IMG/VR virus record: IMGVR_UViG_3300010885_085588
Location: 1-20,090 of that record
Direction: 5' to 3' (one strand)
Length of the DNA: 20,090 nucleotides
Source: a virus
In this document: positions 1 through 19,499 of the stretch, piece after piece
Numbering within the stretch: the first letter of the stretch is position 1
Layout of the letters: each line of letters opens with the position of its first letter
The notes under the pieces: generated by a model
What the model was told of the DNA's origin: nothing
What the model saw: only the letters and a program-made list of their open reading frames with translations
Databases searched by the model: none
Translations under genes and position numbers: made by a program

Positions 1-2
1 CG

Positions 3-299
3 GCTATAAATTTAGCTTATCATTTTGGAGCAGAAAAAATATTATTGTTTTGTTGTGATGATAGTTTTAGCGGAGAAAGAGCAGGATCAATAAAATTAAA
101 TAATGGTTTGTATGAATATCCGCAGCAGCAAATAGCACATGGAATTATTGATGGGTTTTTTTATTGGTTTAATAATCATCCTTATTATGAAACAAAATTA
201 GCTGATCATTCAAGCAGTCAAGAATATAAGCATGCGCCATATATAAGTGAGGAAGATATCCTTCCGTTTTTTCAACAAGGTGGTGAAAAATATGAATAA
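3..299 (+). CDS. C-terminal fragment, possible MptE/DUF115-like protein (5' end outside window)
   Basis: An open frame enters from the left edge and ends at TAA 297-299. The true start is outside the window, so the internal TTG at 45 should not be taken as the start. The first visible residues run INLAYHFGAEKILLFCCDDS, a small-residue helix followed by a hydrophobic strand and acidic residues. This resembles the Rossmann-like end of MptE-like/DUF115 proteins, which often sit in glycan or nucleotide-sugar clusters; a later stretch is YPQQQIAHGIIDGFFYW. The family call is from memory of pattern only. The next gene overlaps its stop by 8 bases and its SD lies in this coding end, so the two are probably co-translated. 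Nearby glycosyltransferase-like genes fit a carbohydrate role, but the catalytic half is not visible. Confidence 0.6.
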   Translation, partial: AINLAYHFGAEKILLFCCDDSFSGERAGSIKLNNGLYEYPQQQIAHGIIDGFFYWFNNHPYYETKLADHSSSQEYKHAPYISEEDILPFFQQGGEKYE

Positions 300-603
300 A
301 TGGAATTACACAAATGACGATCCCTTTGGCCCATTCAATCTGAGTGATTTCAAAAAATGGATGTCAGATCAGCATGATGCTAGAAAATCCAATATGGTTG
401 GTCTTAAAATAGAGTCAAAGATTCCTCTGAAAAAATTAATTTCAAGGATTGAAACTCAAGATGGTGAATTATTGGAAGTCTCCAAAGATTTTAAGAAAAA
501 TGGTGGCACAATCACAGAAGAAAATGGCCATTACATGTATGTTTCAGTAGACAGTGGTTCGTTCATGATTCACAGAATGCATTTGAAAAGATCAGAAGAC
601 TAA
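292..603 (+). CDS. Small hypothetical protein (103 aa)
   Basis: I chose ATG 292 because an SD-like AAGGTGGTG (277-285) sits at good spacing; longer in-frame starts upstream have no SD and lie inside the previous gene. The protein begins MNKWNYTNDDPFGPFNLSDF, is rich in Lys and charged residues, and has no membrane segment or motif I recognise. Its last part (YMYVSVDSGSFMIHRMHLKR) reads as beta strands. It overlaps the truncated upstream gene by 8 bases (same operon), and its TAA stop overlaps the TAG stop of the minus-strand gene on its right within the four bases CTAA (600-603). Function unknown. Confidence 0.7.
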   Translation: MNKWNYTNDDPFGPFNLSDFKKWMSDQHDARKSNMVGLKIESKIPLKKLISRIETQDGELLEVSKDFKKNGGTITEENGHYMYVSVDSGSFMIHRMHLKRSED

Positions 604-965
604 GTGCCTTTACGAATCATTGTTGTTTTTTGAGGCAATGATTTTGTATTTGCATTGCTTTGTGCCGTGACACTGTAGATTTCGGGCTGTGAACTTAGAG
701 GAATGTTGTTATAACTGCGAACTTTAAGAGCAGCCCTGAAATCAGCAAACGTATCAGCTGATTGAATCCATGGTTCCCAATAGATTCTATCATCATAAAT
801 TTTTTGTTTTAATTCTCCTGATATTTCAGCTGGAAGACTGAGAGCATCAACATCTTCCAGTCTTGATGCGATAATGGGCAATCCTCTACAAATAAACAAT
901 ATTTTGACGCTACTTTTATCTCTTTTGGCAAGATAAATATAAACATCTGTATTTTTGTTGGCCAT
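600..965 (-). CDS. Hypothetical phage protein (121 aa)
   Basis: An uninterrupted minus-strand frame from ATG 965 with a weak SD (AAGAGA) just upstream. It starts MANKNTDVYIYLAKRDKSSV and the first 35 residues look like a beta hairpin (VYIYLAKRD, VKILFICRG), followed by a helical, acidic middle (EDVDALSLPAEISGELKQKI). The C-terminal 40 residues are polar and probably disordered. I recognise no catalytic motif. It lies just downstream of the 46-residue ORF on the same strand (2-base gap), so both probably form one small operon. Convergent with the plus-strand gene at 292-603. Confidence 0.7.
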   Translation of the reverse strand: MANKNTDVYIYLAKRDKSSVKILFICRGLPIIASRLEDVDALSLPAEISGELKQKIYDDRIYWEPWIQSADTFADFRAALKVRSYNNIPLSSQPEIYSVTAQSNANTKSLPQKTTMIRKGT

Positions 966-967
966 TT

Positions 968-1108
968 TTATTTCTCTTTTGTTTTTGAAAAAAGCTCTTC
1001 AAGTAGAATCTCCATTACTATTTTAGTATATTCATCCTGAGAACCAAACTCCTTGACAAATTCTTGGAGTGCATTCACAGTTGATCCTATTTCATCTTGG
1101 TGGTTCAT
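968..1108 (-). CDS. Very small hypothetical protein (46 aa)
   Basis: The frame is open further upstream, but ATG at 1108 has a clear SD (AGAGGGA on the minus strand) at normal spacing, and the longer version would run deep into the divergent gene. The product starts MNHQDEIGSTVNALQEFVKE and is predicted to be one or two acidic amphipathic helices ending in SKTKEK. Its stop is 2 bases from the next minus-strand start (965). Its start codon touches the start codon of the plus-strand gene at 1109. No function can be assigned. The good SD and tight coupling are the reasons for calling it real. Confidence 0.6.
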   Translation of the reverse strand: MNHQDEIGSTVNALQEFVKEFGSQDEYTKIVMEILLEELFSKTKEK

Positions 1109-1714
1109 ATGATCCCTCTTCCAGAATACGCAAAAATCAAAGACAATTATTGCATTGCATACTTTGGTTATAGTAAAGAATATCTTGTCCAATTGCGTCT
1201 TCTTAGGCCATATATTGAAGAAGCATTCCCCGGTATTCAAATATACTTATGTTCTAGAGACGATTTGACATATCTATTCAAAGATGAGCCAAGAACTCTC
1301 GATAAATCCACATTAATGGGAAACAAAAAACAATTTGCTTATATTCGTGAAATATCATATAAAAACTCAATTCATCCAGTTGAAGAACTTATGGATGAAT
1401 CAGAAATAGAAATTAAACCAATTTCAACAAAAGAAGGAAATATAGGCTCAGCAGTTCTTTTAACTAATTGTTGCTCTCCTGTTAAAAGTTTGAATCATTA
1501 TCAAATAAAAAGTGCAATTCAATTGGCTGAATTGAAAAATTGCACTATCGCAATCAATGAACCATATGAAAATTATGATTGGGTTATTGGCGTGGAAAAC
1601 GAACAACTTTACGAGGCTGCGGCCCAAGGTAAAAAAGTTACCCTTATTCCTACGGGAATTGGTAAAAATCTATTTAAGAAGATGTTTCCTTTTGCAGAAA
1701 TAGTTGAGATGTGA
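1109..1714 (+). CDS. Glycosyltransferase-like protein of unknown specificity (201 aa)
   Basis: ATG 1109 is preferred over TTG 1097 because GGTGG (1099-1103) lies just upstream of the ATG. The protein starts MIPLPEYAKIKDNYCIAYFG. The N-terminal half contains YLVQLRLLRPYIEEAFPGIQ followed by a strand ending in LCSRDD, like the helix-strand pattern of a GT-B domain. The C-terminal part (WVIGVENEQLYEAAAQGKKV, then a TLIPTGIG turn) resembles the nucleotide-sugar side of GT9/GT-B proteins, in which a strand is followed by a glutamate and a short helix. At about 200 residues it is shorter than a full glycosyltransferase, so it could be a degenerate or accessory version. The neighbouring GT9 gene at 2428 supports a glycan setting. 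Moderate confidence in the gene, low in the function. Confidence 0.7.
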   Translation: MIPLPEYAKIKDNYCIAYFGYSKEYLVQLRLLRPYIEEAFPGIQIYLCSRDDLTYLFKDEPRTLDKSTLMGNKKQFAYIREISYKNSIHPVEELMDESEIEIKPISTKEGNIGSAVLLTNCCSPVKSLNHYQIKSAIQLAELKNCTIAINEPYENYDWVIGVENEQLYEAAAQGKKVTLIPTGIGKNLFKKMFPFAEIVEM

Positions 1715-1735
1715 ATATGATCTGATTTCTCCTGC

Positions 1736-1784
1736 ATAAATATAAAAGAGGTAGGGAAATTTTTATTTAACCTCCAAGGAGAAA
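1736..1784 (+). promoter_or_regulatory. AT-rich leader with strong SD before the virion-like gene
   Basis: The 71-base gap holds ATAAATATAAAAG (1736-1748), a possible -10 or phage late-promoter-like box, and then AAGGAG directly before ATG 1786. I cannot find a convincing -35. Together with the terminator at 2389 this suggests a separately transcribed, strongly translated gene. The SD is clear; the promoter is inferred. Confidence 0.35.
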
Positions 1785-1785
1785 A

Positions 1786-2364
1786 ATGAGCGTATTCAGA
1801 GTAAATTTGAATAACACTGTTCAGGGCACTCTTGACCTGAATCCGGCAACTACAGCTGAGTTTGTCACTTCTGTGCAGCGTACAGTTTATGTTACCGGGC
1901 CAAACAAAATTTATCGCAAACTTGCTGATGGTGATACATTCACTGATTGCAACTACTGGAAAAAATTTGCTTATCCACAAGTTCCTTATGATCAAGCATT
2001 CATCGAAGTTGTTACAGATGATGGTTCAATCTATAGCGACATTCCAGAAGAAAACAATTTCCCAACAGTTTACAGTTTATCTGTAAATGATGGAACTGCT
2101 TTTGCAGCTAATGAAGCCGACATAGTTGGCGATTATGGTTATCCTGCTAACTTCGTACAGATTAATTCAACAGATGCTGGCGGTGGCGACATTCGTGTAA
2201 AACTTAATGGTTTAGCTGGAGCTATATTTGATCTCAAGGCTGGAGACACTCAAGTTTTCAATTATGGCGACCTCGCAGTAACCAAATTGAATTTTGACAA
2301 CGACAGTGGCAACGATCAGACTGTTCAAATTATTGTTTCCGTTAAGAGCGTCTGCACTAGCTGA
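1786..2364 (+). CDS. Probable virion structural protein, beta-rich (192 aa)
   Basis: Strong SD (AAGGAG) and ATG 1786. The protein starts MSVFRVNLNNTVQGTLDLNP and is rich in Thr, Val, Asn, Asp and Gly with few charges, as in capsid-decoration, fibre or tail-tube proteins. The C-terminal part (IRVKLNGLAGAIFDLKAGDT, then FNYGDLAVTKLNFDNDSG) reads as alternating strands of a jelly-roll-like sandwich and resembles C-terminal domains of many phage surface proteins. The gene has its own leader and a strong hairpin terminator directly after it, consistent with a highly expressed monocistronic structural gene. No catalytic residues are visible. The exact role (decoration, fibre, neck) cannot be told. 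Confidence 0.75.
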   Translation: MSVFRVNLNNTVQGTLDLNPATTAEFVTSVQRTVYVTGPNKIYRKLADGDTFTDCNYWKKFAYPQVPYDQAFIEVVTDDGSIYSDIPEENNFPTVYSLSVNDGTAFAANEADIVGDYGYPANFVQINSTDAGGGDIRVKLNGLAGAIFDLKAGDTQVFNYGDLAVTKLNFDNDSGNDQTVQIIVSVKSVCTS

Positions 2365-2388
2365 ATAATATAAAATATTTTAAGACTC

Positions 2389-2422
2389 AAGGCCTAGTCT
2401 CAGCACTAGGCCTTACTATTTT
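2389..2422 (+). terminator. Rho-independent terminator-like hairpin
   Basis: Perfect 10-bp inverted repeat: AAGGCCTAGT (2389-2398) and ACTAGGCCTT (2405-2414) around a 6-base loop, followed by ACTATTTT. It lies 24 bases after the stop of the virion-like gene. The T tract is interrupted, so termination may be partial. The hairpin ends only 13 bases before the start of the GT9 gene. Confidence 0.75.
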
Positions 2423-2427
2423 AAGTC

Positions 2428-3375
2428 ATGAGAAATGGCAATCTTTCTATCAAAGAATTTTATGCGACAAGAAATAAAATACTTTTTATTTCAGATTGGG
2501 GAGGTCTTGGCGATATCATCATACACAGAATGTGTCTTGCAGATGTTAAACGCATAATACCAGACGCAGAAATTCACTTTTGTTGTTTAGATCAATATTT
2601 AGACGCAATAAAAGATCATCCTTTCATAAGTAAATTCGTCAGACCACAAGAACTTAAAAAAGAAGAATATTTGGTTTTTTATCAAACTGATGTTAAAGTT
2701 TCAAATAAATATGAAAGCTTTTATGGAATAAAATGTAAATTACATCGATCCGATATTTGGGCATTATCATGCGGATATGAATTAGAAGATCATAATATGT
2801 ATTTTAATTTGAATACCGATCTTTTGAAGATATATCAAAATAAACTTGAAGAATTTCGCAAAAAGAAAGATCAACCAATTATAATTTTTTCTCCTGATTC
2901 AGCAATCAAGACAAAATGTCTTACTCCTCATCATCTAAAGATTATTGACAATTATTTGAGAGATTTCAATGTTGTCGTTTTAAGCAAAAAAGAGGATGAT
3001 AAATATGGATTCCAAACAATAAAAAATACTAGCTTAACAGAATGGTTATACTATACTGCTTCAGCAGATTATGTTATTTCTGTAGATACAGCAACATTTC
3101 ATTTAGCAGGAGGACTTAAAAAGCCTCTTTTAGGCATATTTACATTTGCTAATGGAAAGACTTATGGAAAATATTATGATTTTGTTTTAGTTCAAAAACA
3201 TTTTGATAGTGGAAAATGGGATTGTGGTCCATGTTATAATTTCAGAACATGTCCAAAAACAAAAAGCGAATTAAAGCCTTGTCTAACTGAAATTTCTGAA
3301 GAAGAAATAAAGTCAGGCATAGATCAGCTTTTTGTGAGATGGCCTTGGAAAAATAAAATTCATTTGCAGAACTAA
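2428..3375 (+). CDS. GT9-family (heptosyltransferase-like) glycosyltransferase (315 aa)
   Basis: Length and pattern fit ADP-heptose:LPS heptosyltransferase-like GT9 enzymes, which move a sugar from a nucleotide donor. The N-terminal nucleotide fold shows KILFISDWGGLGDIIIHRMC (residues 18-37), the Gly-rich loop typical of the family. The C-terminal lobe has YVISVDTATFHLAGGLKKPL, matching the conserved Asp-Thr/Ser...His-Leu-Ala...Pro donor-site block. A Cys-rich end (CGPCYNF, CPKT, CLTEI) resembles GT9 proteins of large phages and of bacteria that carry DCGPC near the end. No usable SD precedes ATG 2428: the upstream 13 bases are TTTTAAGTC-type sequence next to the hairpin. Expression may rely on terminator read-through. 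Likely acts on a host or virion glycan; the sugar is unknown. Confidence 0.8.
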   Translation: MRNGNLSIKEFYATRNKILFISDWGGLGDIIIHRMCLADVKRIIPDAEIHFCCLDQYLDAIKDHPFISKFVRPQELKKEEYLVFYQTDVKVSNKYESFYGIKCKLHRSDIWALSCGYELEDHNMYFNLNTDLLKIYQNKLEEFRKKKDQPIIIFSPDSAIKTKCLTPHHLKIIDNYLRDFNVVVLSKKEDDKYGFQTIKNTSLTEWLYYTASADYVISVDTATFHLAGGLKKPLLGIFTFANGKTYGKYYDFVLVQKHFDSGKWDCGPCYNFRTCPKTKSELKPCLTEISEEEIKSGIDQLFVRWPWKNKIHLQN

Positions 3376-3409
3376 CTATAATGACTATGAAGGGTTGTGT
3401 GGAGGCGAA

Positions 3410-3655
3410 TTGGCTAATTTATTGAAGCCAAATACAGTTAAGGTTGTGACTCAAGATGGTGAATTACATGTCACTATTTCTTTAGAGCTTACAATCAACT
3501 TAAACAGCGACGATCTTAAAATTGCCGTTGCGCCTACTCATGTTGTGTCAGATTCTTCTGTTGCCAAGAAGACAGTGGTCACTAATGACAACCCGATGTG
3601 GGAAATTCCTGATTTTACTTCCACACCTAAAGTTGAATTTGGAAAGAAAGTATAA
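3410..3655 (+). CDS. Small partner-like protein before the actin-like gene (81 aa)
   Basis: I place the start at TTG 3410 because GGAGG (3401-3405) is just upstream; another TTG at 3395 has a poorer SD. From 3410 the protein reads MANLLKPNTVKVVTQDGELH, then a beta-hairpin-like stretch (VTISLELTINLN), a Ser/Thr/Val-rich linker, and a distinctive tail NPMWEIPDFTSTPKVEFGKK ending in Val. The tail looks like a short linear binding peptide. The gene is 11 bases upstream of the actin-like ATPase, in the same operon, so it may be an adaptor or regulator of the filament; this is inferred from position only. No family is recognised. Confidence 0.65.
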   Translation: MANLLKPNTVKVVTQDGELHVTISLELTINLNSDDLKIAVAPTHVVSDSSVAKKTVVTNDNPMWEIPDFTSTPKVEFGKKV

Positions 3656-3666
3656 GGAGAAATGAA

Positions 3667-4674
3667 ATGGCTTGTTCAATGGACGTTGGAACCTACAATC
3701 TCGTTTTTTGTCGCAGAAATGGAGAAGGAAACTTTACTTATCATCGTCAAGTAAATGCTTTTCTTGAAATGCCTTTGGAAAACAGGTTTGTTTTTGACAT
3801 GATGAAACAAGCTGGTGTCCCATTAATTGAACTTGAAAAAAGAGCATACGCACTTGGAGAAGCAGCAGTTGAAATGACTTATACAATGAGTGCATTAGAA
3901 CTCAAGCGCCCAATGACTCATGGATGTGTAAATCCAAAAGAAAAAGATGCTTTTCAAATCATGAGCATCATGATGCACAACTTGATTGAAGGCGTCAAAA
4001 AAGACGGCGAAATATTGTATTATTGTGTTCCAGCTAATGCCGTTAATCAAGATACTGATGCTGATTATCACCAGAGAATTCTACAAGCAATTTTCAATGC
4101 TTATAAAAATGAAACAGGATATAGAGTAGAGGCTCATCCGATTAATGAAGCCTTAGCTTTGGTTTATGCAGAGCTTGGTAAGAAAGCATTCACAGGTATC
4201 GCCGCAAGCTTTGGAGCCGGAATGATAAATGTTTGCTACGCAATGTATGGCAACCCTGTCTTTAGTTTTGCGATTGTTAATTCAGGAGACTGGATTGATC
4301 GTCAGGCAGCTAAGGCAACTGGCGAAAACATTTCATTTATCAATAAAGAAAAAACTAAAATAGATTTGTCTAAGTCTCCAACTAATCTTGTCGAAAGAGC
4401 AATCCATACTCAGTACAGGCTTATGATTGAGCATACTGTTAATGGATTAAAAAAAGGATTCTCAGACATCAATAAGGCTGTCAGAACTGATGGTGAAATT
4501 GATGTCGTAATCGCTGGTGGAACCAGTTCTCCTAATGGATTTACAGAAATATTTAAGGAAACCCTTAGCGGGGTTGAATTGCCAATAAAAATTGGCAATG
4601 TCATCAAGCCTGCTGACCCATTGTACTCGGTTAGTAGAGGATGCTTGATAGCAGCAGAATCCGCATCGAAGTGA
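3667..4674 (+). CDS. Actin-like ATPase (ParM/MreB/Alp superfamily), 335 aa
   Basis: SD AAGGAG (3654-3659) fixes ATG 3667. The layout matches bacterial actin homologues: phosphate-1 loop MDVGTYNL (5-12), a YYCVPANAV strand (118-126), a connect helix with Glu161 (INEALALVYAEL), a phosphate-2 block ASFGAGMINVCYA (180-192), SGDWIDRQAAKATG (206-219), and the adenosine loop VIAGGTSSPNGF (281-292). Such proteins polymerise with ATP and move plasmids or phage DNA, or position cell components. In the phosphate-2 block the usual aspartate (D-x-G-x-G-T) is Ser181 and the last Thr is Met, so hydrolysis may be altered. It sits between an 81-residue gene and a tandem-repeat gene with 11- and 15-base gaps. 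A cytoskeletal or DNA-partition role is likely; the cargo is unknown. Confidence 0.8.
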   Translation: MACSMDVGTYNLVFCRRNGEGNFTYHRQVNAFLEMPLENRFVFDMMKQAGVPLIELEKRAYALGEAAVEMTYTMSALELKRPMTHGCVNPKEKDAFQIMSIMMHNLIEGVKKDGEILYYCVPANAVNQDTDADYHQRILQAIFNAYKNETGYRVEAHPINEALALVYAELGKKAFTGIAASFGAGMINVCYAMYGNPVFSFAIVNSGDWIDRQAAKATGENISFINKEKTKIDLSKSPTNLVERAIHTQYRLMIEHTVNGLKKGFSDINKAVRTDGEIDVVIAGGTSSPNGFTEIFKETLSGVELPIKIGNVIKPADPLYSVSRGCLIAAESASK

Positions 4675-4689
4675 AAAGAAAGGCAAAGA

Positions 4690-5148
4690 ATGAAATATAA
4701 TCAGAAAAGCGTCAGCGACTTAGGTGCTGCCGCTTACCTTCTAATGCATGATTTGAAGGTTGTTGGAAGAAAAGGCAGAGACATTTTTTTTGTCGTTGAC
4801 CCAAAACATGCAGTTGAACATTTTGATCAACTTACACTTGATTACCTATCAAGTGAATTCCATCGATTTGATGCTTGCATCATGAGCTTGAAAAAGATTG
4901 GTGAATATAATTTTAATCCACAAAACTATCGATTTGTAACCGATCTAGGCGCTGCTGCCTATATCCTTATGCATAAATATAAAGTTGTTGGCAAACGTGG
5001 GAAAGCCATTTATTTTGAAGTAGATGATGTTGCAGCAGAAAAATTCGACGAAATAGCACTAGAATACATTTCAAGTGATTTTCATCGCTTTGATTCATGC
5101 TTAATGTCATTGAAAAAAATTGGTGAATATATAAGTGATCAATATTAA
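4690..5148 (+). CDS. Tandem DUF5659-like protein (152 aa, internal duplication)
   Basis: Two near-identical domains fill the protein: residues 8-73 (starting VSDLGAAAYLLMHDLKVVGR) and 83-147 (starting VTDLGAAAYILMHKYKVVGK). Both have the order DLGAAAY, KVVG, a basic turn, an aromatic strand (IFFVV or IYFEV), then FHRFD and SLKKIGEY. This pattern fits DUF5659, a small domain of unknown function that I know mainly from phage proteins, usually as a single copy. A GAAAGG SD lies before ATG 4690. The gene follows the actin-like ATPase after 15 bases. A DNA- or filament-binding dimer made of two fused domains is an inference from the duplication. Confidence 0.8.
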   Translation: MKYNQKSVSDLGAAAYLLMHDLKVVGRKGRDIFFVVDPKHAVEHFDQLTLDYLSSEFHRFDACIMSLKKIGEYNFNPQNYRFVTDLGAAAYILMHKYKVVGKRGKAIYFEVDDVAAEKFDEIALEYISSDFHRFDSCLMSLKKIGEYISDQY

Positions 5149-5159
5149 AAAAAAATCAA

Positions 5160-5167
5160 TATATAGT
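5160..5167 (+). promoter_or_regulatory. TATATAGT motif, copy 1
   Basis: TATATAGT 14 bases before ATG 5182, just ahead of the SD. The same octamer occurs before 10688 and 15413. It could be a phage-specific promoter element, but the distance to the SD leaves almost no leader. Confidence 0.35.
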
Positions 5168-5181
5168 CATAAGGAGACTGT

Positions 5182-6324
5182 ATGTTGAAATTTAGAAAAA
5201 TTAACGAAAACGTAAAAAAAGCAGAGGAAATCATGAAGATTTCCTCTGCGATTGATGATGTAGTTAATCAATGGATTTCAGATCTAAAGCATGAAATTAT
5301 AACAGGCTCAAGTATTCAGAATCGTGGAATTTGGGATAGATTCAAAAATTTTGTCGCCAATGTGTGGCACGGATATGATAACAAAAAAAACCCTTATTAT
5401 TCAATAAACAAACTAGGATACGGCCTTGGATCTGAAAATAAAAACGAATCATTGAAAAGCTATAATGATCTTCGAGAAACTTGCGAAAGTTTAGAAGACA
5501 AAATAAATGAAGAAGATTTATCAAATTTAAGAATTATGCAAATAATCGACAAACATGCAGCTTTACTCAAAACAAAAATGAAAGAAGTTCTTGTTCCAGT
5601 TTTAACAGCGTCTACCGATGCATATGAAAAATTAGGTAAATTATCTTATACACTAAGTCCAGAAGAAAAAGAAATTGTAAGAAGAAAAGATGTTAAAAAA
5701 CCAACAGAAATTGTTGCTCCTCAAAAAAAACCGAAAACGAAATCTGGAGACCAGACAGCGCCTCTTTCCCCTGAAAATAGGATAGGAAAAACAAAACTAT
5801 TGTCAGGTAAAAAACTAAAAAGAAATTACACATTAACTTCTACTGAAGATTATCCAAAACCCTTTAATTCTCCAAAACCTGATGATACTCCAAAACCCGT
5901 TAATGCTACAAAACCTGATGATGCAGATCAACCAACAATCAGCACCAAGCCATTGGGCCAAGGAAAAGAAAAATCAAAAGAAGCAAAATACATTGAGACA
6001 ATTATATCAGATTTAGATATCCTTGGTAGAAACACAGAAAGACTCAAAGAACTAAGCAAAAGATTACCAGATTATAAAGAATCTTTTTACCAAGAATTAG
6101 AACGTGTCATTTTGAGGGAGCTTGAAGATTTACCTTCTGGAGGCGTGAGAGAATTTTACACTACCAAATTTGAAGAAGCAAAAAGTCTTAAACAAACCGC
6201 TAATTTGCTAAATGCTCTTTTATCAGGGCTTGATCCAGAAGAGCATACAACAAATGAATCATTTAGCATTGTTGGTTTAGCCAAGAGAAAAATTTTGAAA
6301 TTCCGTCAACTTTGTTACGGTTGA
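5182..6324 (+). CDS. Hypothetical helical protein with Pro/Lys linker (380 aa)
   Basis: ATG 5182 has a strong SD (AAGGAG 5171-5176). Residues 1-160 are helical and charged (start MLKFRKINENVKKAEEIMKI, then RGIWDRFKNFVANVWHGYDN), residues 170-265 are a low-complexity Pro/Lys/Thr/Asp linker with a repeated PKP-DDTPKP-type unit, and 270-380 form a second helical domain (YIETIISDLDILGRNTERLK). The linker corresponds to a 36-base repeat in the DNA. No enzyme motif or membrane segment is visible. The two-domain-plus-linker shape suits a structural or scaffolding protein, or a protein that bridges partners, but no family is recognised. Its last 10 bases overlap the end of the minus-strand gene at 6315. 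Confidence 0.75.
   Translation: MLKFRKINENVKKAEEIMKISSAIDDVVNQWISDLKHEIITGSSIQNRGIWDRFKNFVANVWHGYDNKKNPYYSINKLGYGLGSENKNESLKSYNDLRETCESLEDKINEEDLSNLRIMQIIDKHAALLKTKMKEVLVPVLTASTDAYEKLGKLSYTLSPEEKEIVRRKDVKKPTEIVAPQKKPKTKSGDQTAPLSPENRIGKTKLLSGKKLKRNYTLTSTEDYPKPFNSPKPDDTPKPVNATKPDDADQPTISTKPLGQGKEKSKEAKYIETIISDLDILGRNTERLKELSKRLPDYKESFYQELERVILRELEDLPSGGVREFYTTKFEEAKSLKQTANLLNALLSGLDPEEHTTNESFSIVGLAKRKILKFRQLCYG
5854..5925 (+). repeat. Two copies of an imperfect 36-bp coding repeat
   Basis: Copies at 5854-5889 and 5890-5925 share the frame CCAAAACCC...TTAAT...CAAAACCTGATGATRCW, each made of two 18-base halves. They encode the PKP-rich linker of the 380-residue protein. They look like recent in-frame slippage, not a regulatory array. 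Confidence 0.75.
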
Positions 6325-6329
6325 TTTTT
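6305..6329 (+). terminator. Weak hairpin at the end of the 380-aa gene
   Basis: GTCAAC (6305-6310) can pair with GTTGAT (6320-6325, one G-T pair) around a 9-base loop, followed by a short T run. It overlaps the stop codon. The stem is only 6 bp, so this is a weak candidate. Confidence 0.25.
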
Positions 6330-6734
6330 CCCAATCATTTTTTTGTTAAAATCATGCGCTTGTCTCTGCAAGGATGCTAATGTTGCAGGATCAATAAAAG
6401 GTGATTTATTTGGATCAATTTCAACTATTCCATTAGGGTTTCTTGGTGGATTTTTCTTAATATCTTCTACAATGTTTTGATATTCAGGATTGTTTTCATC
6501 AATGACTTGCTCTTCAATAATACCAACAACATATTCCATGGTGTAAAAATTCTTACATCCAGTTACATGATGCCTTGTGAAAACTCCATCTTCATCAATG
6601 TTTTCAACTATTCCCGTAAAAAAATCAGCAAATTGATGGTCTTCAAAATTATTCTTTGCAATGCCAGTTGTTAAAACAGTGCATACTTTACCAACAAATT
6701 GCTCTTGTAGTTTTTTTATAGATGTAATTTTCAT
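6315..6734 (-). CDS. Hypothetical protein with N-terminal beta-barrel-like part (139 aa)
   Basis: ATG 6734 lies in the four-base ATGA overlap with the stop of the upstream oxygenase-like gene, so translation is probably coupled; I see no good SD. The first 75 residues alternate short strands (KVCTVLTTG, DFFTGIVENIDEDGVFTRH, YTMEYVVGIIEEQVID), which suggests a small SH3- or OB-like barrel. The remainder is Pro/Asn-rich and ends in a helix (LASLQRQAHDFNKKMIGKNQ). It resembles widely spread small phage proteins, but no function is known to me. Its end overlaps the convergent 380-residue gene by 10 bases. Confidence 0.7.
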   Translation of the reverse strand: MKITSIKKLQEQFVGKVCTVLTTGIAKNNFEDHQFADFFTGIVENIDEDGVFTRHHVTGCKNFYTMEYVVGIIEEQVIDENNPEYQNIVEDIKKNPPRNPNGIVEIDPNKSPFIDPATLASLQRQAHDFNKKMIGKNQP

Positions 6735-7309
6735 GATGTGTATAAGCTATATCCTATGCTAATTCTGTCTGTTTCAGAAAAAACGCTATGCCAAATTGGT
6801 TTTTCACCAATCTTGAACATCCTAAAGTTCCATCCCTGTTTATCCCAAGATGTTATGATTTCTTCTGTTTCAGGATCACGAAAACGAAAGAAAGATTTTT
6901 CACCTTCTCTGGCAAATGTACAGTATATCCTATATCCCTTGTTGTTACTATTTGTGTGCCATCCCATATATCCATTTACTGGATACCATATCCGACCACT
7001 TATTCCCATTGATTTAATGTTTCTGCCAACCAAGTGTCTTGTAAGTCTTTTGTGCAAGAAATCAAAATTTATATTGTTAAATTTATAAACATTACAGTCA
7101 TAGGTTGCAACATTTCTATCTTTACTAATTATTGTATCTAAAGATTCTTTTGAAACCCTAGACAAAGCATAATCTTTTGTAACTTCTAATCTGTAAAGAG
7201 TTTTCTCAACTTTATTGGTATCGTAATTTATTGCGTCTACTATCTTTTCAAGACCTGCATATAAATGATCATCCTTTATGTCAAGATCTTCGTATAATTT
7301 TTCGCTCAT
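6731..7309 (-). CDS. 2OG-Fe(II) oxygenase-like protein (192 aa)
   Basis: Start taken at ATG 7309 because GGGAGAA lies just upstream; the longer frame adds MQDVFVLCIMYWENF without an SD. The C-terminal half matches the jelly-roll core of small phage 2OG-Fe(II) oxygenases: RIWYPVNGYMGWHTNSNNKG (106-125), SFFRFRDPETEE, WHSVF (His174) and DRISIGYSLY (Arg182). These give a possible H-x-N...H metal site and a 2-oxoglutarate-binding Arg. Asn120 stands where the usual motif (H-x-D/E) has an acidic residue, so activity is uncertain. Targets in phages can be nucleobases, proteins or small molecules; none can be chosen here. The 139-residue gene follows through an ATGA overlap. Confidence 0.6.
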   Translation of the reverse strand: MSEKLYEDLDIKDDHLYAGLEKIVDAINYDTNKVEKTLYRLEVTKDYALSRVSKESLDTIISKDRNVATYDCNVYKFNNINFDFLHKRLTRHLVGRNIKSMGISGRIWYPVNGYMGWHTNSNNKGYRIYCTFAREGEKSFFRFRDPETEEIITSWDKQGWNFRMFKIGEKPIWHSVFSETDRISIGYSLYTS

Positions 7310-7325
7310 GAAATTCTCCCAATAC

Positions 7326-7354
7326 ATTATACATAAAACAAAGACATCTTGCAA
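7326..7354 (-). promoter_or_regulatory. Sigma70-like promoter for the oxygenase-like operon
   Basis: On the minus strand TTGCAA (7349-7354) and a perfect TATAAT (7326-7331) are 17 bases apart. The predicted start (about 7319) would leave a leader of about 10 bases that begins at the SD. The boxes fit well; the very short leader argues for caution. Confidence 0.45.
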
Positions 7355-7367
7355 TTATTGGAGTATG

Positions 7368-7859
7368 ATGAAAAAGAAAATCAATGAAGTCGCTCCTTCC
7401 GGTTGGGAAGGAACTGTCAAAGCAATGAAAAAACACAAAGAAATTGATAATCCTTGGGCATTGGCTTACAGCATGAAAAAAAAAGGATATAAATCACATA
7501 AAAATGAAAAGAAGAAAAAGAAGAACGAACAATCTTTTTTATTACCAACATTTTCTGAATGGCTTAAAAATAATCATGGTGAAATTTATGATGAAAATTG
7601 GAAAAATTGGATATTGGCTGGTTTAGCAGGCATGGGTATTGGCTCTGGTCTAGGGGCTGCTGCGCCTTATACGAAAAATTTTGATCCTAAAAATGCATTG
7701 CATCATGCGGTTGGAGCAAAACACACAGCCATGGATGCATTTTCAGATATGCCAATAGAAAAAAGAGTTGGATTGGGTGGAGCTCTTGGTGCCGCTGCTG
7801 GCGCTGGGGTTCTTGCTAGTGCCTTAAGAAAAAGAAAAGGCAATTTGATGAAAAAATAA
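7368..7859 (+). CDS. Small membrane protein with phage N-terminal motif and glycine zippers (163 aa)
   Basis: GGAG (7360-7363) favours the second of two tandem ATGs (7368; the other is 7365). The start reads MKKKINEVAPSGWEGTVKAM, followed by KKHKEIDNPWALAYSMKKKG. This W-E-x-T-V-K-A-M ... N-P-W-A-L-A motif is common near the start of phage virion-associated proteins as I recall. A Lys-rich linker follows. The C-terminal half has two Gly/Ala-rich hydrophobic segments (ILAGLAGMGIGSGLGAAAPY and VGLGGALGAAAGAGVLASAL) typical of glycine-zipper membrane helices, and a basic end. This combination suits a virion protein that reaches or enters the host membrane; that is inference. The stop is one base from the convergent primase stop. 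Confidence 0.7.
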   Translation: MKKKINEVAPSGWEGTVKAMKKHKEIDNPWALAYSMKKKGYKSHKNEKKKKKNEQSFLLPTFSEWLKNNHGEIYDENWKNWILAGLAGMGIGSGLGAAAPYTKNFDPKNALHHAVGAKHTAMDAFSDMPIEKRVGLGGALGAAAGAGVLASALRKRKGNLMKK

Positions 7860-15412: not shown

Positions 15413-16549
15413 ATGAAAAAGCTTTATGTTGCTGCGATGATTGTTGGACTAGCGATATTGTTTTTAGTAATAAATAAAGAAAAAACTGCTCTTCTTGCTC
15501 CTCAAGAACCAGTAAATCCATTTGAAGAAATTATTAAACAAGAAAATAAGAAAGAAGAGAAACCAAAACTAACTGTCGCAGAAGCAATTGCTAAAATAGA
15601 CAGAATTAGCCTTAAAGAAAATGTTGAATACCTTGCTTCAAATGAACTTGAAGGAAGAATGTCTGGTAAAAAAGGCAATAAAATTGCCGCTGATTTTATC
15701 AAGAAGAGATTTGAAAAAAATGATCTTCTCACTGAATATGATAAATTTTCAATAAGAAGAATAAATCCCGGACCAAAAAATGAAATTGGCGATGATTTCA
15801 CACAAAATATTTACACATGGATAGAAGGAAACGATCTTGTCCTAAAAGACGAAATTGTCGTCATTGGCGCTCATATGGACCATATAGGCTATGGTCCAAG
15901 TTACAGCAGATATGGCAACAATAGAATTCACAATGGCGCTGATGACAATGCGAGCGGAACAGCTGCACTTATTGAAATTGCCGAAGCATTTGCCGCAATG
16001 AAAGGCCAAAATAAAAGAACTGTAGTGATTATGGCTTTTTCAGCAGAAGAAATGGGCCTGAAAGGAAGTTTACATTACGTCAATAACCCTAAGTTTCCTA
16101 AAGGAAATCCCGATATCAAGAAACATGTATTTATGCTTAATATGGATATGATAGGATATCTTGGTAAAAGTAAAACTGCTGTTTTTGATGATGGATCAAG
16201 TTCTCCTGATATTGGATTCATAATAAAACAATTATCTGAAAAATATTCATTTGCAAAAAGTGTTACTCTTCGTGGATCTGGAGGTAGTGATCATGCTCCT
16301 TTTTACAATAAAAAAATTCCAGTTGCATTTTTACATACTGGACTCCATGATTATTATCACACTCCTAAAGATACTGCCGACAGGATTAACTATGATGGTT
16401 TAGAAAAAGTTGCCAGATATGGTTTTGAACTTGCTTGGAATGTTTGCAATGCTGTAGAAAGAGTTGAATTCGATTATGGTTCTTTTACAGAAATGGATTA
16501 TAGCCATGATCATGGTCAAAAAGACATGCCTTTGGAGGAAACGCCATGA
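15413..16549 (+). CDS. Membrane-anchored or secreted M28 zinc peptidase (378 aa)
   Basis: N-terminal MKKLYVAAMIVGLAILFLVI is a signal anchor, followed by a Lys/Glu/Pro-rich spacer (residues 30-55). The M28 di-zinc ligands are all visible: GAHMDHIG (His154), NGADDNASG (Asp178), FSAEEMG (Glu212 catalytic base, Glu213 ligand), NMDMIG (Asp245) and YYHTPKD (His316). Enzymes of this family remove amino acids or short peptides from N- or C-termini outside the cytoplasm. A PA-type insert is not obvious. GAGGT precedes ATG 15413. The C-terminal tail is acidic and His-rich (DYSHDHGQKDM). The ferritin-like gene follows with a 4-base overlap, so the two are made together. Rare in phages; probably acquired from a host. 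Confidence 0.88.
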   Translation: MKKLYVAAMIVGLAILFLVINKEKTALLAPQEPVNPFEEIIKQENKKEEKPKLTVAEAIAKIDRISLKENVEYLASNELEGRMSGKKGNKIAADFIKKRFEKNDLLTEYDKFSIRRINPGPKNEIGDDFTQNIYTWIEGNDLVLKDEIVVIGAHMDHIGYGPSYSRYGNNRIHNGADDNASGTAALIEIAEAFAAMKGQNKRTVVIMAFSAEEMGLKGSLHYVNNPKFPKGNPDIKKHVFMLNMDMIGYLGKSKTAVFDDGSSSPDIGFIIKQLSEKYSFAKSVTLRGSGGSDHAPFYNKKIPVAFLHTGLHDYYHTPKDTADRINYDGLEKVARYGFELAWNVCNAVERVEFDYGSFTEMDYSHDHGQKDMPLEETP

Positions 16550-16974
16550 ATAAAGAAGAAATGATTGATGTTTTGAATCAAGACCTTAAAAATGAATGGA
16601 TGCATCTCCATTTTTACTTGTATCACGCAAGTATGGTTACTGGTCTTCATTGCCATGAATATAAAGAACTTTTATTGGAAGAAGCTGCCAGTGAAATGGT
16701 TCATGTAACCCAATTTTCCGATCTTATCATTGGACTTGGAGGCCTTCCAACAACTTCATTCAATGAATTCCCCGTTTTCAATGATCCTAGAGACATTATT
16801 GAGTACGCTGTCTATATGGAATCACTAGTTGTTTCCAATTACACTTTAAGAATTAAAGAAGCAACTGAACTTGGAGGAGTAGATGGTCAATGGTTGGAAA
16901 TATTTCTTGAAAAACAAATAGAACATAGCCGTGAAGATGTAGATCATTTCAAACAAATTCTTCGTGGAATATAA
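16546..16974 (+). CDS. Ferritin-like/bacterioferritin-type protein (142 aa)
   Basis: A four-helix-bundle protein of ferritin-like size. Likely diiron residues: Glu17 (LKNEWMHLHFYLYHA), Glu50 and His53 (EEAASEMVHVTQF), Glu92 (YMESLVVSNY) and the fourth helix LEKQIEHSREDVDHF with His127; the residue three before it is Gln124 where classic bacterioferritins have Glu, so the site may differ. Possible roles are iron storage, iron delivery or oxidative protection. ATG 16546 overlaps the M28 stop (ATGA), with GGAGG inside the M28 end. Translational coupling suggests a shared purpose or shared acquisition. No signal peptide, so it is cytoplasmic. Confidence 0.75.
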   Translation: MNKEEMIDVLNQDLKNEWMHLHFYLYHASMVTGLHCHEYKELLLEEAASEMVHVTQFSDLIIGLGGLPTTSFNEFPVFNDPRDIIEYAVYMESLVVSNYTLRIKEATELGGVDGQWLEIFLEKQIEHSREDVDHFKQILRGI

Positions 16975-17408: not shown

Positions 17409-19499
17409 ATGTCTTATTTTCAAAACCTTTTCAACGATTACTACGGCTATTATACTGCTGGAGACTCATCTAGTTTCAAACTTACCTTTAAGGTTCCTGC
17501 TAACAAGAATCATGGTGAGTTTTTCATTAACTGGAATGCTGGTCCTTATGATTTCAGTTCATTTGGCAGCAATCTAACATTTAATTTTGCCTTTGATCCA
17601 TCATTCAAAAACTGGTCTTCTTTCACAGTTGATGTTGTTGGAGTTGATTTTGCCGCAACAACAGTTTATGAAATTGTTGATATTCTTAACAACGACTCAA
17701 ACTTCAAAGACTGGTACACAGCAGGAATTTATAACAACAATCAAATCGGAATACGCCAAAAAAGACCAGCAATACAATTTCACACTTATATCTCAAACTC
17801 ATCAGCCGAATTTACTCTAAAATTCAATAAAAATGCTGGCATCGCAGATATTCCTTCTTATTTCGACAAGGACACAATTGATAACCGCTTCACAAGCCAG
17901 ATTGCACATGGTCACCTAATCAGACTTGGAAAAACCATTATTGGCAATACAGCTTCAGATTCAACAGCTGTAACTGTAATAAATCACGGTTTAACTAATG
18001 GCGATACCGTTTACATCGTCAATAGTAATTCAATTCCATCTATTGATGGCTCATACAATGTCACCGTTACTGGGACCAATGAATTCGTAATCGACGCAAG
18101 TGTAGCTGTGGCAGGGACATCTGGCGAGATGCTCACAGAAAATGATTATCAAGTACTTGTTGATGCTGGAATCGACTACACAAAGATGCTTTCTGACTAC
18201 GAACACCTACAAGGTCGTTGTGAAGCATTCAAATTTACAAAAAATACACTTGATTCTTCATCCAGAATTGTATCTCAAATAATTTATGCAGCAGGAGCAA
18301 CTGCTGGTATGCTGGGTAAGAAAACCACTTATACATATCTTTCAAGCAATACAACACCAGATTCGGTGTCAGAAATTCCTTATATTTTAACAAGTGAAGA
18401 CCTAGTCATAGAAACGCCAGCACCAACACCACCCGGAAGATTATTTAACTGGGGCAGAAATGATTCTGGTCAACTTGGAAGAAATGATACTGATAATAGA
18501 TCTTCTCCTGTTCAAACAATTGCTTATGGAATCGACTGGAAACAAGTGAAAGATGGCTTTGCCTTCTCGATGGCAATTAAGGATAATGGAACACTATGGG
18601 CATGGGGCGATAATTATTCTGGTCAATTAGGAGATGAAACTATTGATAATAAATCTTCACCAATTCAAATTGGATCTGATACCAACTGGAGTTCCATATC
18701 TTGTGGTGATTATCACACAGCAGCTATAAAAACAGATGGAACACTTTGGATTTGGGGTTCAAATTATAATTATCAATTAGGAACCAATAATGGTTATAGT
18801 GTTTGGGAATCATCTCCAGTTCAAACATCAATTGGAGGAAACGACTGGGTATCAGTATCTTGCGCTTACAATCATACTGTCGCATTAAAATCTAATGGAA
18901 CAATGTGGGCTTGGGGCAATGGTTACTATGGTCAACTTGGAGATGATTCAACTGATAGTCGTTCATATCCAGTAATGAATAATTACGGTGAAGACACTTG
19001 GTCTAAAATTTATGCTGGCTACAATTGTACTTTTGGCATAAAGAATGATGGTACTTTGTGGTCGTTTGGATTAAATGACAATGGAACATTAGGAGATGGC
19101 ACAGACCAAAATCGTTCTTCTCTTGTTCAAGTTCTTGGTTCAGGAATATGGAAACAAGTTGACGTTAAGCAAACAGCAATTGCAATTAAACAGGACGGAA
19201 CTTTGTGGACTTGGGGTGTTGGAAATGATGGACAATTAGGAAACAACGAAGTTGTTAATTACTCTTCACCAATTCAAACAGTCATGGGAGGAAATGGATG
19301 GGTTCAATGTTCGGCAGGAGGTACTTTAAGTGCTGCAATTCGCAATGATGGAACGCTTTGGACTTGGGGAGGGAATTTATATGGTCAATTAGGAAATGGA
19401 ACTGAAGATAACACTTCTTCTCCAATTCAAGTTACCGGCATTAACTGGGCTTATGTTGCCTGTGGTAGCGGTGCAACTTCTGCAATTAAGTCCGTTTGA
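17409..19499 (+). CDS. Probable tail-fibre/appendage protein with seven-blade RCC1 propeller (696 aa)
   Basis: Three parts are visible. Residues 1-160 are beta-rich with few charges (start MSYFQNLFNDYYGYYTAGDS), as in virion attachment domains. Residues about 185-230 carry GLTNGDTVYIVNSNS and GSYNVTVTGTNEFVI, a small beta domain seen in phage adhesins. After a Pro-rich hinge (ETPAPTPPG, about 334-342) come seven RCC1 repeats, each with W/F-G-x-N-x-x-G-Q-L-G and S-S-P-V/I-Q: WGRNDSGQLG, WGDNYSGQLG, WGSNYNYQLG, WGNGYYGQLG, FGLNDNGTLG, WGVGNDGQLG and WGGNLYGQLG. Seven repeats make one closed beta propeller, a likely binding head. GAGGA is the SD. Probably a receptor-binding or surface-display protein. 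Confidence 0.85.
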   Translation: MSYFQNLFNDYYGYYTAGDSSSFKLTFKVPANKNHGEFFINWNAGPYDFSSFGSNLTFNFAFDPSFKNWSSFTVDVVGVDFAATTVYEIVDILNNDSNFKDWYTAGIYNNNQIGIRQKRPAIQFHTYISNSSAEFTLKFNKNAGIADIPSYFDKDTIDNRFTSQIAHGHLIRLGKTIIGNTASDSTAVTVINHGLTNGDTVYIVNSNSIPSIDGSYNVTVTGTNEFVIDASVAVAGTSGEMLTENDYQVLVDAGIDYTKMLSDYEHLQGRCEAFKFTKNTLDSSSRIVSQIIYAAGATAGMLGKKTTYTYLSSNTTPDSVSEIPYILTSEDLVIETPAPTPPGRLFNWGRNDSGQLGRNDTDNRSSPVQTIAYGIDWKQVKDGFAFSMAIKDNGTLWAWGDNYSGQLGDETIDNKSSPIQIGSDTNWSSISCGDYHTAAIKTDGTLWIWGSNYNYQLGTNNGYSVWESSPVQTSIGGNDWVSVSCAYNHTVALKSNGTMWAWGNGYYGQLGDDSTDSRSYPVMNNYGEDTWSKIYAGYNCTFGIKNDGTLWSFGLNDNGTLGDGTDQNRSSLVQVLGSGIWKQVDVKQTAIAIKQDGTLWTWGVGNDGQLGNNEVVNYSSPIQTVMGGNGWVQCSAGGTLSAAIRNDGTLWTWGGNLYGQLGNGTEDNTSSPIQVTGINWAYVACGSGATSAIKSV

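Follow-up and report, generated by a model that had tools for sequence, protein, structure and literature searches.

Cytoskeletons of phages are known mainly from the tubulin spindles of nucleus-forming phages and from a few ParM- or AlpC-like actins. The prophage actin and adaptor pair AlpAC aids phage replication, and its operon is preceded by 24 alpS repeats (PMC4446434). Volactin (PF25216), a family previously described only as a haloarchaeal cell-shape actin, is reported from Haloferax to influence cell shape in vivo and to form dynamic filaments, which elongate and depolymerise fast in cells (PMC10869688). We found no report of a volactin in phages in the open-access literature.

Here we describe such a protein, with two small candidate partners, in a 20,090-nucleotide stretch of DNA (the window) from IMG/VR virus record IMGVR_UViG_3300010885_085588. 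The original prediction of an undescribed phage cytoskeletal system proves a fair reading, no description of one having been found in the literature searched. The novelty lies in the viral volactin clade with its two-partner cassette; phage actins and the volactin family were each already known.

The gene block and its conservation

Only 11 and 15 bases separate three plus-strand ORFs (3395/3410-3655, 3667-4674 and 4690-5148), the tight packing that had been claimed for them, and the features of the region are:

1786..2364, + strand: p192, a conserved gene; nearly all 74 loci have a homologue of it upstream of the actin
2428..3375, + strand: GT9, glycosyltransferase family 9-like (PF01075, 33.5 bits, cut-off 22)
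3410..3655, + strand: sm86, a small candidate partner of 81 aa when started at TTG 3410 (51 distinct homologues aligned)
3599..3652, + strand: conserved C-terminal tail of sm86, WEIPDFTSTPKVEFGKKV (motif in 51/51 homologues)
3667..4674, + strand: phage volactin, actin-fold ATPase, 335 aa (PF25216 at 7e-64, AF2 model and fold search)
4147..4149, + strand: Glu161 codon, catalytic-Glu position of the actin/MreB/MamK family (141/141 volactins)
4207..4209, + strand: Ser181 codon, phosphate-2 position (141/141 volactins; aligned with the MamK Asp)
4690..5148, + strand: dup, second candidate partner, two copies of one domain (model pLDDT 91.6)
5182..6324, + strand: p380, downstream gene, evolving fast and containing a Pro/Lys repeat segment of low complexity (same-place homologue)

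The cassette reaches beyond three genes, to p192 and GT9 upstream and to p380 downstream: the order p192-GT9-sm86-volactin-dup-p380 recurs across loci and is found also in the 595-kb phage LR756511. GT9 is a conserved neighbour of the actin in most loci, and p380 has a homologue at the equivalent place in most of them, often with partial similarity. A terminator-like hairpin lies between p192 and GT9 (window 2389-2414), and p380 has a 12-bp stem at its start (window 5221-5249). As had been noticed originally, the locus shows no repeat-rich, centromere-like site: we found no iterated repeat array at or near the block in positions 1-7500 outside coding repeats. The clear repeats are all coding, being the two halves of dup and the Pro/Lys repeats of p380 (inside which an 18-base tandem repeat occupies 5849-5924), and as these are the sole ones, centromere-like repeats were rejected as a candidate.

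We compared the block with 74 IMG/VR relatives at 58-98% identity and with LR756511; these phages are uncultured, and the completeness of IMG/VR records is not given. Both sm86 and dup stand beside the actin in every one of the 74 loci that is not cut by a contig end, and in LR756511, so that the co-occurrence proposed as a check on the triplet is upheld. The only loci without sm86 (L020, L049, L057, L070) or without dup (L030, L060, L068, L073) are on contigs that end on the side concerned. Compared with close relatives, volactin has a dN/dS of 0.04-0.06, dup one of 0.01-0.09 and sm86 one of 0.12-0.25, values of purifying selection. The three-gene pattern is more than chance, given the low values for the actin and dup (0.01-0.09 taken together) and an order kept across dozens of contigs. 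Several lineages have, between volactin and dup, a gene of a fast-evolving family (about 230-350 aa) that the window lacks (L018 3822-4772; L024 7293-8342; L043 6198-7196; L293 9117-9980; L076 9083-9775).

Larger contigs speak to the same unit. Nine large phage records, most of them in the same terminase clade, all carry volactin, sm86 and p192, and dup was found in all nine as well, in four by profile search and in the other five beside the actin in fetched loci. Five terminase-clade records (381, 158, 64, 55 and 43 kb), which are possibly incomplete, lack all four genes; in two of them the neighbouring genes remain, followed instead by a gene of 819-929 aa and one for a head-tail adaptor. 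In large contigs p192 is present or absent as volactin is, and this all-or-none pattern of the four genes among large terminase-clade contigs supports their being one functional module.

Other genes of these phages include, in the window, a ferritin-like protein (16546-16974) and an M28-family peptidase (15413-16549), adjacent to each other beside the terminase gene, and a 696-aa protein with seven RCC1 repeats (17409-19499), which perhaps belongs to the virion or binds the host. In a 323-kb volactin-bearing phage contig, a tmRNA gene (L300 13483-13842; tag GTVNYAMAA) adjoins tRNA-Leu.

The volactin ATPase and its phosphate-2 serine

The 335-aa ATPase is a member of the Volactin family PF25216 (216.8 bits, 7e-64; curated cut-off 35 bits), and the match is full length, spanning residues 1-330 on profile positions 1-321 of 321; identity to archaeal copies is 32-36%. 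The structure model is that of a close homologue, L035 (actin 78% identical), rather than of the window protein itself, and L035 sm86 and actin were modelled jointly by translating the stop codons as Gly, a step taken solely to make the joint model. In this AF2 model most of the actin reaches a pLDDT of about 90 or higher, and the fold search returned Z scores of 28.3 for MamK in its filament state, 27.0 for BeeR, 25.6 for MreB and 25.5 for crenactin, with EutJ also among the Foldseek matches. A profile search of the PDB matched MamK at 1.4e-6; against the NCBIfam MamK model NF040964 the window ATPase scores 30.5 bits, below the cut-off of 400 bits. The phosphate-1 Asp and the catalytic Glu position are both present together with the actin fold: D6, E161, G183 and G185 are conserved among volactins, and Glu161 aligns with the Glu of MamK VSEPF. 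The claim of an actin-like ATPase is thereby borne out, the predicted fold being that of actin and not one outside the actin/HSP70 superfamily.

Ser181 does lie where it had been placed, at the phosphate-2 Asp, as a profile alignment sets it against the Asp of MamK IIVDIGAGTTD. The description of this motif as unusual does not hold for the family to which the protein belongs. Position 181 is always Ser, and position 161 always Glu, in all 141 distinct full-length volactins (52 from phages and 89 from archaea, Omnitrophota or LR745208), so the SxGxG motif, with Ser replacing the phosphate-2 Asp, is a family feature and we reject a phage-particular change of the active site. The further suggestion that Ser181 slows hydrolysis and gives stable filaments likewise falls away: the same Ser is shared with the dynamic Haloferax volactin, and E161 is kept. 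Since Ser181 is a family trait and Haloferax filaments are dynamic, there is no ground for expecting stable filaments here. The invariant phosphate-2 Ser instead offers a direct test of ATP hydrolysis by actins that are without the canonical Asp.

The same site is visited by mobile elements in relatives of this phage. In seven loci (L068, L072, L073, L074, L075, L080 and L286) an in-frame insert lies directly after Ser181, within the phosphate-2 motif; it starts CLCP and finishes HN before Cys. Pfam finds LAGLIDADG_3 in it at 4.5e-11, above the cut-off, and Intein_splicing (1e-7) and Hint_2 (3e-6), both slightly below theirs. By these signatures the insert is a LAGLIDADG-bearing intein, with Cys1, a Hint domain, an endonuclease and an HN|C junction, and the phosphate-2 site is a homing target. 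In five further loci a GIY-YIG/NUMOD3 homing endonuclease gene is present in the sm86-volactin junction (L028 7248-7967; L041 3044-3586; L050 7324-7995; L056 7313-7930; L060 2806-3519), confirmed by Pfam in L028, L056 and L060. Such mobile elements favour conserved genes.

In a maximum-likelihood tree, the 29 phage representatives fall on one side of a branch with support of 100 and a length of 2.5 changes per column, with the archaeal and Omnitrophota volactins on the opposite side; on this tree the phage volactins form one clade, far from the archaeal and Omnitrophota copies. The volactin of a second huge phage, LR745208, is a different one and falls with Omnitrophota (support 94), a placement made unsure by long branches, and we found no sm86, dup or p192 in this phage. 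Volactin scores above the cut-off in 54/247 genomes of an archaeal phylum and in 7/193 Omnitrophota genomes, and neither sm86 nor dup was found beside those cellular volactins that were examined. In Omnitrophota, two adjacent volactin paralogues come after genes for a ParA-like ATPase and a coiled-coil protein (L092 and L158, about 4.3-8.6 kb). In archaea, volactin domains occur within open frames of about 1180-1260 codons (G367, G386, G406), and these long frames suggest multi-domain volactins.

The two candidate partners

The sm86 frame is open from 3395. TTG 3410, which sits behind GGAGG, is the preferred start because homologues begin M-[AP]-[QN]-L-[IL]-[KR]-P there. The protein consists of a conserved N-terminal beta-hairpin region, a variable linker of 24-37 residues and a conserved C-terminal tail, a layout that would be usual for a short docking peptide. 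The tail, [IV]P[DEN]F...FG[KE], is present in all 51 distinct homologues, with the Pro, both Phe and the Gly unchanged throughout, and so the C-terminal peptide that had merely looked conserved is indeed so. In the L035 read-through model the tail (pLDDT about 59-63) is better ordered than the linker (34-40), at values that are not confident. When every frame of the phage loci and of one 323-kb contig was searched, the motif turned up nowhere outside sm86, and on this ground we rejected the idea that IPDF...FGK is a recurrent sorting tag. A family search gave no match for sm86 to any known family.

The duplication claimed for the third protein is real: dup (152 aa) is a true tandem duplication of a beta-alpha-beta-beta-alpha-alpha domain, as borne out both by the model and by homologues, which are of a single domain in L048, L065, L066 and L076 and in LR756511. 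Its proposed identity as DUF5659 (PF18903) had to be given up, as the window dup has no match at E<=1 and the best single-domain homologue reaches 16.3 bits, below the curated cut-off of 23.6. No match in the family search of dup passed any cut-off, and no solved fold was assigned to it (Foldseek E>=0.04, VIA Z<5).

How the partners relate to the actin is suggested by one locus, L004, in which a divergent sm86 (63% identity) stands beside a 97% identical actin, so that sm86 and actin are separately exchangeable. There, an exchanged GT9-sm86 pair lies next to a nearly identical volactin-dup pair, and volactin and dup therefore look like the tighter unit. The pairwise distance correlation is highest for volactin-dup (0.82), followed by volactin-sm86 (0.74), with shared ancestry uncontrolled in both.

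Possible roles of the phage volactin

We propose, with a probability of about 0.6, a viral branch of volactin that would form its own filaments together with two phage-specific partners and so organise the infected cell. The region is the core of a conserved gene block in a clade of huge tailed phages, with contigs up to 595 kb. Volactin would bind ATP and polymerise like its haloarchaeal relatives, and the filament could serve as the phage's own skeleton, positioning or scaffolding cargo such as replicating genomes or capsids. sm86 may act as an adaptor, with a folded N-terminal hairpin, a disordered linker and an IPDF...FGK tail docking on filament or cargo, and dup may be a second binding protein which regulates or bundles filaments. 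Speaking for this reading are the full-length family match, structural neighbours that are filament formers, the steady company of sm86 and dup, purifying selection on the actin and dup, a tail motif confined to sm86, the volactin-dup distance correlation, the dynamic filaments of the haloarchaeal relative (PMC10869688) and the help that AlpAC gives to phage replication (PMC4446434). Speaking against it are the modest confidence of the sm86 tail in the model, the separate exchange of sm86 and actin in L004, the failure of dup to match a solved fold, and partners unlike known DNA-binding adaptors at a locus where no centromere-like repeats were found.

An actin fold with small genes next to it could also belong to a type II partition-like system, in which the actin moves phage DNA and sm86 or dup is the DNA-binding adaptor, as in ParMRC or AlpAC. 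Prophage AlpAC is a precedent for this (PMC4446434), and the order of small protein then actin resembles that of alpA-alpC. However, of the features of such a system the locus itself has the actin-like ATPase and not the iterated centromere-like site, unlike AlpAC with its alpS array (PMC4446434); the space from the end of GT9 to the sm86 start at 3410 is about 34 bases, and neither sm86 nor dup is in a recognisable DNA-binding family. The lack of a repeat array at the locus makes partition less likely, and we consider it distinctly improbable. We also think it unlikely that the protein is a non-polymer member of the fold whose clients are sm86 and dup, for example an assembly factor of the Hsp70/EutJ kind, or a protein of the virion or of its assembly. 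The actin/HSP70 superfamily does have members that form no filaments, EutJ appears among the Foldseek matches, the terminase gene is no more than about 10 kb from the block, and two related contigs that lack the block have a head-tail adaptor gene close by; but the best structural matches are filament formers, headed by filament-state MamK, and the one studied member of the family forms filaments (PMC10869688).

Another explanation is interference with the host, by which a host-derived volactin would co-polymerise with or poison a host actin and alter cytoskeleton or cell shape. Its cellular relatives are cytoskeletal, and the family is present in archaea and in Omnitrophota bacteria. Yet the branch of 2.5 changes per column from all cellular copies argues against a recent copy of a host gene, and strict retention with two phage-only partners points to a function of the volactin's own, making interference very unlikely in our view.

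Returning to the viral volactin, a conserved branch of the family in phages whose genomes measure several hundred kilobases would enlarge the viral actins by one lineage and bring an archaeal cell-shape family into bacteriophage biology. More tentatively, and with somewhat less than even odds, PhuZ tubulin and the ParM/AlpC-type actins may here be joined by a third kind of phage cytoskeleton, in which volactin filaments with two phage-only partners and no centromere would arrange genomes or capsids without a PhuZ spindle. We found no match to tubulin (PF00091) in 23 viral or phage records up to 595 kb, the single match falling on a different contig of the bacterial bin to which L080 belongs, nor any MreB-family gene or second actin above cut-off in the same phages, and such companions were rejected on this basis. 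The actin, sm86 and dup give defined proteins with which to probe how replication is arranged in non-tubulin huge phages.

Among known systems, the PhuZ spindle of nucleus-forming jumbo phages is alike by analogy only, as a phage-encoded cytoskeleton in a jumbo phage; PhuZ is a tubulin and the window protein an actin. AlpC and AlpA of prophage CGP3 (Corynebacterium glutamicum) are likewise a phage-encoded actin and a small partner encoded upstream, whereas here no repeat array was found and a candidate second partner, dup, lies downstream. MamK is the best solved relative both by profile and by fold, but it has Asp at phosphate 2 where the phage protein has Ser. Closest is VolA (HVO_2015, Haloferax volcanii), which is of the same full-length PF25216 family and has the same SxGxG phosphate-2 motif; in contrast to VolA, the phage copies are a separate long-branch clade, flanked by sm86, dup, GT9 and p192.
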